Source: Rickettsiales bacterium (GTDB lineage: Bacteria > Pseudomonadota > Alphaproteobacteria > Rickettsiales > JALZUV01). Taken from it: a stretch of DNA of 64,000 nucleotides. The notes beneath the pieces are model-generated. The model was not told where the DNA came from, searched no databases, and saw only the letters and a list, made by a program, of their open reading frames with translations. Within the stretch, counting starts at the first letter, position 1. The number at the start of each line of letters is the position of its first letter. Shown here piece after piece: positions 14,819 through 18,148 of this stretch. The translations under genes were made by a program, and so were the position numbers. The stretch lies in assembly GCA_029252805.1 (NCBI GenBank), contig JAQXAR010000025.1:1-64000 (forward strand). Direction: 5' to 3'.

Positions 14819-15685
14819 TTACGCCACTAACAAATCTATCATTTCTTCAATCACCGTGGTGCGGGCGGTGGTTTTTCGCCAGACTAGGCCGATTTCTCGG
14901 CGTGGGGCGGGGGATTGAAAGGAGAGATAATGGATGCCGGTCTCGTCTCCTGAAATGGCAATTTCAGGCATGAGGGTAATGCCGGTGCCGGCTTTGACCA
15001 TTTGGCGTAATGTCTCTAAGCCTGTCGCGCGGAAATCTTGTTCAGCGGCACCGGTCAGTTGACAGACTTCCATTGCCTGGTCGCGCAGGCAATGGCCTTC
15101 TTCTAATAATAGGAGGCGGTGGCGTGAGAGGTCAGTCATGCGTACCTGCGGTTCTTGTGCGAGTTTATGATCCAGCGGTACAGCGAGGCGGAACTTATCC
15201 TCAAAGAGCTTCTTGCTGACCAGTGAATCCTCAGTAATAGGTAGTGCGATGAGCGCGGCATCTAGTTCGCCGCGTTTGAGTCTTTTTATCAGGGCGGCGG
15301 TTTTATCTTCTACGAGGATGAGGCGGAGCTTAGGGAGTGCCTCTTTTACTAGCGGTACGAGTTGCGGGAAGATATAAGTGGAAAGCGTTGGGAAGGCGCC
15401 CAGGCGGAAGGTTCCGGAGCGAGGGTCTTGCGCCAACCTGCCTATTTCGCGGATCGTTTCGGCCTCATGCAGGAGACGGCGGGCGGCTTTGATAATTTCG
15501 GCTCCAGTTTCGGTCACCATTACTTTCTTATTGGAGCGCTCAAAGATGGGGGTTTGCAATGTCTGTTCCAGCTTCTTTATTTGCGCGCTGAGTGTTGGCT
15601 GACTCACGTTGCATTGCTCAGCAGCCCGGCTAAAGCTGCTTAAGTCAGCGACTGTGACTAAATATTCCATGTCTCGTATATTCAT
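14819..15685 (-). CDS. oxyR: Hydrogen-peroxide-sensing LysR regulator OxyR
   Basis: This 288-residue LysR-type regulator begins at MNIRDMEYLV; AAAGG lies 8 bp upstream. The N-terminal helix-turn-helix is SSFSRAAEQCNVSQPTLSAQ. The C-terminal sensor domain has the OxyR redox pair in EGHCLRDQAMEVC, matching Cys199 and Cys208 of the E. coli protein by context and spacing. Oxidation to the disulfide would activate antioxidant genes. It diverges from ahpC-ahpD-dps across a 230-bp region that contains an OxyR-type site, so it very probably controls those genes and itself. Confidence 0.92.
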   Translation of the reverse strand: MNIRDMEYLVTVADLSSFSRAAEQCNVSQPTLSAQIKKLEQTLQTPIFERSNKKVMVTETGAEIIKAARRLLHEAETIREIGRLAQDPRSGTFRLGAFPTLSTYIFPQLVPLVKEALPKLRLILVEDKTAALIKRLKRGELDAALIALPITEDSLVSKKLFEDKFRLAVPLDHKLAQEPQVRMTDLSRHRLLLLEEGHCLRDQAMEVCQLTGAAEQDFRATGLETLRQMVKAGTGITLMPEIAISGDETGIHYLSFQSPAPRREIGLVWRKTTARTTVIEEMIDLLVA

Positions 15686-15799
15686 AAGGCTTACCTTTTG
15701 CGTCATTTCGACTAAGTGAAGCGTATGGAGAAGTCTCATGCAGAATGCGGGAATCTCTCCTCTCTCCTTGGTCGGTCGAGATGATGGTGTTTATAAGTT

Positions 15800-15915: not shown

Positions 15916-16485
15916 ATGACCATTTCAGTCGGAGATCAGTTCCCAGAATTTAACCTTAAAGCGGTGGACGGTAAGCCGTTTGACGACATCAATATCGACA
16001 ATGTATTTATCGATGTTGATAACAGCATCCATAAAGGAAAGTGGCTGACGATCTTTTTCTATCCCAAAGATTTCACCTTTGTTTGTCCAACGGAAATTGC
16101 GGCTTTCGGTGATTTGAACGAAGAGTTTGAAGATCGTGACACGGTGCTTGTGACGGCCAGCACCGATAGTGAATTCACTCACTGGGCGTGGAGAAAACAC
16201 CAAGATGAGCTGCGTGAGTTGCCTATTCTCATGCTTGCAGATGTGAAACGTGAACTAACAACCGCGCTTGGTATTTTAGATAAAAATGAAGGTGTGGCGC
16301 AGCGTGCCGTCTTCATTGTCGACCCAGAGGGCATCGTTCGCTTCTCCATGGTGACGGATTTGAATGTCGGTCGTAATCCCAAAGAGGTGCTTCGCGTGCT
16401 CGATGCATTGCAAACCGATGAGCTCTGTCCATGTAACTGGAGTAAAGGCGATGAGACGATTGATTTAGAAGAAGTAACGAAATAA
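15916..16485 (+). CDS. ahpC: Alkyl hydroperoxide reductase AhpC (peroxiredoxin)
   Basis: This is a 189-residue 2-Cys peroxiredoxin of the actinobacterial/alphaproteobacterial AhpC type. The peroxidatic Cys is in DFTFVCPTEI (about residue 56). The C-terminus carries the resolving cysteines in ELCPCNWSKGD, the form that is reduced by AhpD rather than AhpF. It reduces hydrogen peroxide, organic peroxides and possibly peroxynitrite in the cytoplasm. An excellent ribosome site, AGGAGG, lies 8 bp before the ATG. It is the first gene of a plus-strand run with ahpD, dps and Ni-SOD, under a putative OxyR site. Confidence 0.95.
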   Translation: MTISVGDQFPEFNLKAVDGKPFDDINIDNVFIDVDNSIHKGKWLTIFFYPKDFTFVCPTEIAAFGDLNEEFEDRDTVLVTASTDSEFTHWAWRKHQDELRELPILMLADVKRELTTALGILDKNEGVAQRAVFIVDPEGIVRFSMVTDLNVGRNPKEVLRVLDALQTDELCPCNWSKGDETIDLEEVTK

Positions 16486-16550: not shown

Positions 16551-17078
16551 ATGTCTATCAAAGAAATCCGCTCACAATTAGGTGAGTATGCCAAAGATAT
16601 CAAACTGAACCTTGGTAATGTATTAAGTGAAGAAGGGGCTGCAGGCCTTGATGCAAATCAAATCGCAGGTATCGCATTAGCCTCGGCTTGTGCGACCAAG
16701 AACGTACAGTTGATTGAGGCAGTTACGGCTGAAGCATCGGAGCGTTTATCCGCAGAAGAAGTACAGGCAGCAAAAGCAGCAGCGACCATTATGGGTATGA
16801 ATAATATCTATTACCGTTTCGTGCATTTAGTGTCGGATGGCGGTTACATGAAAATGCCAGCTAACCTGCGTATGAACGTGATTGCTAACCCCGGTATTGA
16901 TAAAGTAACGTTTGAGCTGGAAAGCTTGGCCGTATCCGCTATTACAGGGTGTGGTATGTGCATTGACGCACATGTTCGTGAAGTCGAAAAAGCTGGAATT
17001 AGCAAGCAGGGCGTGCAATCAACCATTCGTATTGCCGCCGTTATTAACGCTACCGCGCAAGCACTAGTCATTGGTTAA
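16551..17078 (+). CDS. ahpD: Alkylhydroperoxidase AhpD
   Basis: This is a 175-residue all-helical AhpD/CMD-family protein. The redox centre TGCGMCIDAHVREVEKAG (near residue 130) has the CxxC pair and the downstream His. It regenerates AhpC, drawing electrons from dihydrolipoamide-type donors, and has weak peroxidase activity itself. It follows ahpC after a 65-bp gap with a strong hairpin, so its expression relative to ahpC may be reduced. Confidence 0.94.
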   Translation: MSIKEIRSQLGEYAKDIKLNLGNVLSEEGAAGLDANQIAGIALASACATKNVQLIEAVTAEASERLSAEEVQAAKAAATIMGMNNIYYRFVHLVSDGGYMKMPANLRMNVIANPGIDKVTFELESLAVSAITGCGMCIDAHVREVEKAGISKQGVQSTIRIAAVINATAQALVIG

Positions 17079-17203: not shown

Positions 17204-17638
17204 ATGAATAATCCCGTTGCAGAATCACTGAAAGCCGTATTGGCCGATAGCTATACGCTTTATTTAAAAACCCAAAATTATCACTGGAATGTAACGGGGC
17301 CGCATTTTGCCTCTTTGCATGTTTTGTTTGAGCAGCATTATACCGAGTTGACGATGGCGATTGATGAGATTGCAGAATTAATTCGTGGATTAGGCGAGAA
17401 AGCACCGGGAAGTTTTGAAGCGTTCCAGGAGATCTCTACGATCGCATCAGGGGATGTGAATGCCTCGGCTGAACAGATGGTGAAAGAGTTGGCCGCAGAT
17501 CAACTAGCTGTCTCTAAAACCGTTCAAGCAGCGTTAGAAGCAGCGCAAGCAGCAGAGGATGAAGTCGTCATCGGCGCATTGACCGAGCGTTTGACCGTGC
17601 ATCGTAAAAATGCATGGATGCTCAAAAGCAGCCTTTAA
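17204..17638 (+). CDS. dps: Dps-family DNA-protecting ferritin-like protein
   Basis: This is a 144-residue Dps protein starting at MNNPVAESLK; an AGGAAA ribosome site precedes the ATG. An in-frame TTG 30 bp upstream has no such site. The ferroxidase-site residues are seen in the first and second helices: YHWNVTGPHFASLH and FEQHYTELTMAIDEIAELIRGLG. Dps dodecamers oxidise Fe(II) with hydrogen peroxide, store iron and coat DNA. Its position after ahpC-ahpD and before the superoxide dismutase fits an OxyR-type stress regulon. Confidence 0.94.
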   Translation: MNNPVAESLKAVLADSYTLYLKTQNYHWNVTGPHFASLHVLFEQHYTELTMAIDEIAELIRGLGEKAPGSFEAFQEISTIASGDVNASAEQMVKELAADQLAVSKTVQAALEAAQAAEDEVVIGALTERLTVHRKNAWMLKSSL

Positions 17639-17659
17639 TATAACGGAGAGTCGAAGCAT

Positions 17660-18148
17660 ATGGTGGTCCACAGAAAATCTACGATAACTATTATCGGCGT
17701 TTTGGTCTGGCTGATGGGTGCAAACGCTGCGCTAGCACATTGTGAAATCCCGTGTGGAGTGTACGATGATGGCGCGCGTTTCGTGAGCATTATGGGGCAT
17801 GCGAATACGATTGAAAAATCAATGAATGAGATTAATCGTTTAAGTGCGCAAGTGAAGCCTGACTTTCACATGATCTCTCGATGGACTGCCAATAAAGAGA
17901 AGCTTGCGCAAGAGGTGCAGGAGATTGCGTCCGTTTATTTTCTGACGCAGCGTGTCAAAGCACCTAAAGCTGATGCAAGTGATCAGATGAAACAGGCTTA
18001 TGCAATGCATACTGGCTTGCTACACCAGATTCTCGTCGCAGCGATGAAAGCCAAGCAATCCACCGATGTGAAAGCAGTGGGAATTCTACGTGATTTAACA
18101 GAAGAATATAAAGCGCATTATTTTAAAAAACATGGCCACAACCACTGA
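17660..18148 (+). CDS. sodN: Nickel superoxide dismutase with secretion signal
   Basis: The 162-residue precursor carries the nickel-hook sequence HCEIPCGVYDDGAR. His27, Cys28 and Cys32 match His1, Cys2 and Cys6 of mature Ni-SOD, and Tyr35 matches Tyr9. A hydrophobic signal peptide stands directly before His27 and ends NAALA, a normal signal-peptidase I site. Cleavage there would expose His1 without a dedicated SodX-type protease, and the enzyme would work in the periplasm or outside. The following four-helix region (MGHANTIEKSMNEI, DLTEEYKAHYFKKHG) fits the family. The C-terminus is His-rich (KKHGHNH). No sodX gene is adjacent. It is the last gene of the oxidative-stress run. Confidence 0.9.
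   Translation: MVVHRKSTITIIGVLVWLMGANAALAHCEIPCGVYDDGARFVSIMGHANTIEKSMNEINRLSAQVKPDFHMISRWTANKEKLAQEVQEIASVYFLTQRVKAPKADASDQMKQAYAMHTGLLHQILVAAMKAKQSTDVKAVGILRDLTEEYKAHYFKKHGHNH

Follow-up and report, generated by a model that had tools for sequence, protein, structure and literature searches.

A nickel superoxide dismutase gene in an oxidative-stress cluster of a Rickettsiales bacterium, and a branch of Ni-SODs probably exported and matured by signal peptidase I

The window analysed here is a stretch of 64,000 nucleotides from a Rickettsiales bacterium, and it carries a group of oxidative-stress genes in the order oxyR, ahpC, ahpD, dps and sodN, in which oxyR is divergent from the others and sodN is last. 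The regulator (14819–15739, minus strand) is an OxyR-type protein of the LysR kind, for which the best NCBIfam model was OxyR (286 bits, cut-off 329) and which has an OxyR-like C-x8-C pair. On the plus strand, the first gene of the predicted operon encodes an AhpC-type peroxiredoxin (15916–16485; PF00578, with TIGR03137 below its cut-off), followed by genes for an AhpD alkylhydroperoxidase (16551–17078; TIGR00777 at 195.8 bits, over the cut-off) and for a Dps-like ferritin (17204–17638; PF00210, with the Dps models below their cut-offs) that ends 21 nucleotides before sodN. The initial annotation had grouped sodN with ahpC, ahpD and dps, and all three indeed precede it immediately, on its own strand; the divergent OxyR-type regulator at the head of the cluster was absent from that account. 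The four genes ahpC-ahpD-dps-sodN are likely to form an operon. A promoter scan returned 12 promoter-like sites against 4.8 expected, none of them convincing, and a terminator scan returned 4 terminator-like sites against 3.1 expected.

The open reading frame of sodN (17660–18148, plus strand) starts with ATG, is preceded at a distance of 9 nucleotides by the ribosome-binding site GGAGAG (17645–17650, plus strand; read from the sequence), and encodes a precursor of 162 amino acids. In profile searches the precursor scored 83 bits with PF09055 (Sod_Ni; gathering cut-off 25) and 41.9 bits with the curated sodN model TIGR02753 (cut-off 90); since the latter score lies below the cut-off, the protein is regarded as a divergent member of Sod_Ni and is not filed as a TIGR02753 equivalog. 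The first 26 residues, MVVHRKSTITIIGVLVWLMGANAALA (17660–17737, plus strand), are predicted to be a Sec-type signal peptide, a feature conserved in relatives: the best 12-residue mean hydropathy is 2.4, the core is without charge, a net charge of +2 precedes it, and A-L-A occupies positions −3 to −1. By these simple measures of hydropathy, charge and the A-x-A rule, the presequence qualifies as an ordinary Sec signal. The nickel hook HCEIPCGVY (17738–17764, plus strand) begins with His1 directly after the predicted cleavage site, as the initial annotation had it, and conforms to H1-C2-x-x-P5-C6-x-x-Y9; among 69 aligned relatives H1, C2, P5, C6, G7 and Y9 are invariant. The mature domain (17738–18145, plus strand) would comprise 136 residues, of which Cys2 and Cys6 are the sole cysteines, and it ends in the His-rich sequence KKHGHNH (18125–18145, plus strand).

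The AlphaFold2 model of the mature protein (pLDDT 92.8, pTM 0.86) is a four-helix bundle (helices at residues 11–36, 43–72, 82–107 and 111–130), which is the NiSOD fold, and the top 15 PDB matches of the model were all NiSOD, with E values of about 5e-3 to 7e-2 and TM scores of 0.63–0.70 by query length. Model confidence is low in the His-rich C-terminus and, at 63, lower in the hook than in the domain, as is expected without nickel. A phmmer search of the PDB with the single window protein found nothing, and a profile matched NiSOD weakly. Of the 40 columns that are 85% or more conserved among its relatives, the window protein deviates at six; E20 (94% conserved) is replaced by Gly (codon 17795–17797) and H56 (99% conserved) by Leu (codon 17903–17905), both residues being retained in the nearest relative, L017. 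The H56 column aligns with Arg47 of Streptomyces NiSOD, a second-sphere residue near His1. Because of H56L and E20G, the activity of the window protein itself is less certain than that of the family, and the enzyme may be less active or tuned.

Textbook Ni-SODs are assembled in the cytoplasm and require a dedicated protease, SodX, an S26 peptidase related to signal peptidase. The host assembly (2,193,791 bases, 63 contigs) is 99.2% complete, and its sole S26 peptidase is LepB, signal peptidase I (TIGR02227, 163.7 bits). No sodX adjoins sodN, as had been recorded at the outset, and a TIGR02754 search of the whole assembly, which the initial annotation had proposed as the test that could overturn its reading, found none either, the weak matches being LepB and an HTH/S24 repressor. 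The genome encodes one Fe-SOD of the cytosolic type, without a signal peptide, and a CuZn-SOD was not found in it. Within the order, 87 sampled genomes, one of them of the same genus (86% complete), lack sodN; its distribution is therefore patchy and the gene was probably acquired. A phage or viral origin was looked for and none was found.

PF09055 was surveyed in whole genomes sampled by taxonomy, the presequence not being a criterion; the sample comprised 385 genomes of the same class and 398 of the phylum, together with 345 from the phylum of Desulfatibacillum (G830) and 294 from Planctomycetota, the phylum of Candidatus Anammoxibacter (G837). The family splits into an Asp3 (HCD) branch and a Glu3/Gln3 (HCE/HCQ) branch, and in a tree of 81 rows, from which the first 11 mature residues (the hook columns) had been removed, the two kinds fall on opposite sides of a single branch with a support of 100/100. 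The window protein, which is 61% identical to an alphaproteobacterial relative, groups with three other alphaproteobacterial proteins (99/89) and next with Desulfoluna (95/84); it has Glu3 and Asp11, not the Asp3 and Pro11 of the classical HCDxPC..YDP. Presequences of the Asp3 branch (n=29) are short, with a hydropathy of at most 1.26 and no signal peptide in any, whereas those of the 46 Glu3/Gln3 sequences with a regular hook are typical export signals with a hydropathy of at least 1.80, so that the two distributions, drawn from Pseudomonadota, Desulfobacterota and Planctomycetota, do not overlap. Six more Glu3/Gln3 sequences, with Phe for Tyr9, were missed by the hook pattern and have export signals by eye; Phe replaces the otherwise invariant Tyr9 in the planctomycete exported-type sequences L161, L163, L170, L178, L186 and L187. 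Another 80 loci, every one of the Glu3/Gln3 kind, came from a scan of named genomes guided by patterns; as one of these patterns contained A-H-C and so favoured Ala at −1, the loci were excluded from the hydropathy comparison. Going by record titles, they belong to Desulfobacterota, Bacteroidota, Acidobacteriota, Calditrichota, Nitrospirota, Verrucomicrobiota/Kiritimatiellota, Latescibacterota, Gemmatimonadota, Omnitrophota, Aquificota and others.

The exported branch can be defined by a hydrophobic export signal that abuts HC[EQ]xPCG[IV][YF]xD and by the lack of an adjacent SodX, and the window protein has these features. Asp3 is found in 29 of 29 SodX-type relatives and in none of 123 sequences of the exported branch. 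At least two His residues occur among the last 12 positions of 65 of the 123 exported-branch sequences, against 0 of 29 in the Asp3 branch. The initial annotation had suggested that KKHGHNH assists nickel loading: the tail is there, and similar ones end about half of the relatives, but it is common rather than universal, and the loading role therefore stays a guess; it may help but is not required. Two unusual architectures were also seen. L188 (G1204) has an exported-type hook domain in a mature chain of 452 amino acids with a long C-terminal extension. At L013:967-1947 (G191, same class), an HCD sodN shares one open frame with a HupE-like membrane protein encoded upstream, which itself has a His after its signal peptide; this is either a fusion of nickel permease and pro-SodN or a gene whose translation starts internally, 24 codons ahead of His1.

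The split between the branches is matched by the distribution of SodX, which was searched genome-wide with TIGR02754 in 106 different genomes. In 28 of the 29 Asp3 genomes a full-length match lies no more than a few hundred bases from sodN, and in the missing case (G1300) sodN ends 87 bases from the contig end; SodX lies beside sodN in 0 of the 77 genomes with the exported form only (Fisher p 9e-25, without correction for kinship, the association being essentially one split on the tree and not many independent events). In the three planctomycete genomes that harbour both forms (G1298, G1367 and G1389), SodX adjoins the Asp3 copy and never the exported one. In the exported-only genomes, weak TIGR02754 matches are distant from sodN or on a different contig, or no SodX motif was found within at most 4 kb on each side of exported sodN, some flanks being cut by contig ends. 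The weak matches inspected in genomes with the exported form are mostly longer S26 proteins with a LepB box of the GDNRxxSxDSR type; L118 of G829, L204 of G1249 and L210 of G988 lack this box, and these three genomes may encode an unlinked SodX-like protein. Among the neighbours of exported-branch sodN within 4 kb, no recurrent nickel or protease gene was found; the largest cluster of conserved neighbours (13 loci) was rejected as an antisense artefact of sodN itself.

A hydrophobic export signal stands directly before the hook in all 123 Glu3/Gln3-branch sequences, which indicates that the junction of signal and hook is more than chance. The presequences of the relatives are mostly 23–28 residues long and differ in their letters. 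The −3/−1 rule is obeyed by 118 of the 123 (pooled); the remaining five, all planctomycete, lack a proper −3/−1 pair before His and may be cut elsewhere. In the planctomycete exported-type sequences L180, L181, L184 and L185, Arg, Trp or Leu precedes His1, against the signal-peptidase rule, and a second cut or a different mature start may apply. Motif tests of the 123 presequences found no strict Tat (twin-arginine) motif, and Tat export of the branch was accordingly rejected.

Taken together, these observations favour, with a probability of roughly 0.8, the reading of the window sodN as an exported nickel superoxide dismutase whose His1 is freed by signal peptidase I and which would remove superoxide in the periplasm. 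The precursor, having no twin-arginine motif, would be exported unfolded through Sec, and LepB would cut after Ala26, a single event that would both complete export and leave His1 with a free alpha-amino group. Folding and nickel uptake would then take place in the periplasm, the predicted ligands being the amine and imidazole of His1, the amide and thiolate of Cys2 and the thiolate of Cys6; in this oxidising compartment a Cys2-Cys6 disulphide could form before nickel binding. Hydrogen peroxide arising from superoxide removal would be met by the OxyR-linked AhpC, AhpD and Dps genes of the same cluster. SodN would fill the slot that the periplasmic CuZn-SOD (SodC) has in other bacteria, with the Fe-SOD serving the cytoplasm. 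The survey of sodN products for signal peptides, also proposed in the initial annotation, bears on its central claim that signal peptidase serves both maturation and export: a signal peptide and sodX exclude each other across the two sister branches, the claim is supported and probably right, and in the exported branch ordinary signal peptidase probably replaces the dedicated protease. Its description of Ni-SODs as cytoplasmic holds for the Asp3 branch only and fails for the exported branch, which is large.

The most serious competitor, though an improbable one, accepts export and cleavage by signal peptidase and takes the product for a periplasmic protein of nickel (or copper) binding, buffering or delivery rather than a working SOD. 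Exported nickel or copper binders with an N-terminal His that are not SODs are known (DUF4198, Ang-1 and CopC; PMC12537917), many members of the branch have His-rich tails, Glu or Gln stands at position 3 in place of Asp, and the window protein has lost the near-invariant E20 and H56. This reading fits poorly with the invariance of H1-C2-P5-C6-G7-Y9 in the 69 aligned relatives, where the Cys2 and Cys6 thiolates amount to a SOD-type ligand set, with the oxidative-stress setting of oxyR, ahpCD and dps, and with the finding that no nickel transport gene recurs beside sodN of the branch. The same two substitutions, together with the finding of sodN only here in the search of the order, would also suit a degenerate, horizontally acquired gene without present function; with reading frame, ribosome-binding site, hook and signal peptide all intact, a place in the stress cluster and the 61% identity noted above, such decay is very unlikely.

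The remaining readings concern the N-terminus. An in-frame ATG (Met19) lies 8 codons before His1, and a start there would leave the propeptide MGANAALA on a cytoplasmic enzyme trimmed by an unlinked protease. Propeptides of the Asp3 kind also end in A/V-x-A before His, which is compatible with such trimming; the shared ending also fits the kinship of SodX, as an S26 peptidase, with signal peptidase, with the same cleavage rule applied by two different peptidases. The good ribosome-binding site is the one before 17660, however, the relatives keep the hydrophobic presequence and mostly have no inner ATG at that place, and the genome has no SodX, all of which make the inner start highly improbable. 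Least credible of all is a lipoprotein, cut by signal peptidase II before a Cys2 that is then lipidated: a hydrophobic signal with an A-x-A site does have a Cys at the second position downstream, but His always precedes this Cys, which misfits the lipobox (0 of 123 branch sequences have one at the hook), and such cleavage would take off His1.

For the branch as a whole, the proposal is put forward with somewhat less assurance, as being on balance probable: in the sampled Planctomycetota and Desulfobacterota, half or more of the Ni-SODs would be exported, matured by signal peptidase I and supplied with nickel once outside the cytoplasm, a dedicated protease playing no part; the cytoplasmic form that depends on SodX would be an alternative way to free His1, and some planctomycetes would keep one enzyme per compartment. 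The single case in the window belongs to a broad branch that follows a clear rule open to test. The branch is large, extends across many bacterial phyla and is little-studied; a search of the open-access literature, subscription papers lying outside it, found no description of it. Signal-peptide-bearing SOD_Ni sequences are already visible in that literature, as PMC12537917 (2025) attests: the signal peptide of SOD_Ni from Roseiconus lacunae (WP_230780104.1) served there as bait for other metal proteins, and 'many Ni-superoxide dismutases' were recovered. That work seems to have made use of the signal peptide only, and not to have studied the enzyme, its maturation or the link to SodX. In work on cyanobacteria (PMC8346466), lack of sodX was treated as a possible lack of Ni-SOD function. 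If the branch is active, the rule that sodN without sodX is perhaps an unusable enzyme would fail for exported forms, an unusual nickel-thiolate enzyme would be assembled outside the cytoplasm, and many anaerobes and microaerophiles would have a copper-free periplasmic SOD.

Among known systems, the periplasmic CuZn-SOD (SodC) shares the proposed role of removing superoxide outside the cytoplasm, with a fold and metal unrelated to those of SodN, and it is not encoded in this genome. LPMO, CopC, DUF4198 and Ang-1 likewise have a metal-chelating N-terminal His freed by signal peptidase (PMC12537917), but their folds are unrelated, they have no Cys2/Cys6 thiolates and they are not SODs. The Roseiconus lacunae sequence of the same source, annotated as a Ni-SOD, has like the window protein a signal peptide just before His, in its case ending in ASA, and probably belongs to the same exported branch. 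The classical cytoplasmic Ni-SOD (TIGR02753; Streptomyces, PDB 1q0d/1t6u) shares PF09055, the hook HCxxPCxxY and the four-helix-bundle fold; it differs in its short propeptide cut by an adjacent SodX (TIGR02754), where the window protein has a Sec signal peptide and no SodX, and the exported branch has Glu or Gln3 for Asp3, D11 for P11 and often a His-rich tail.
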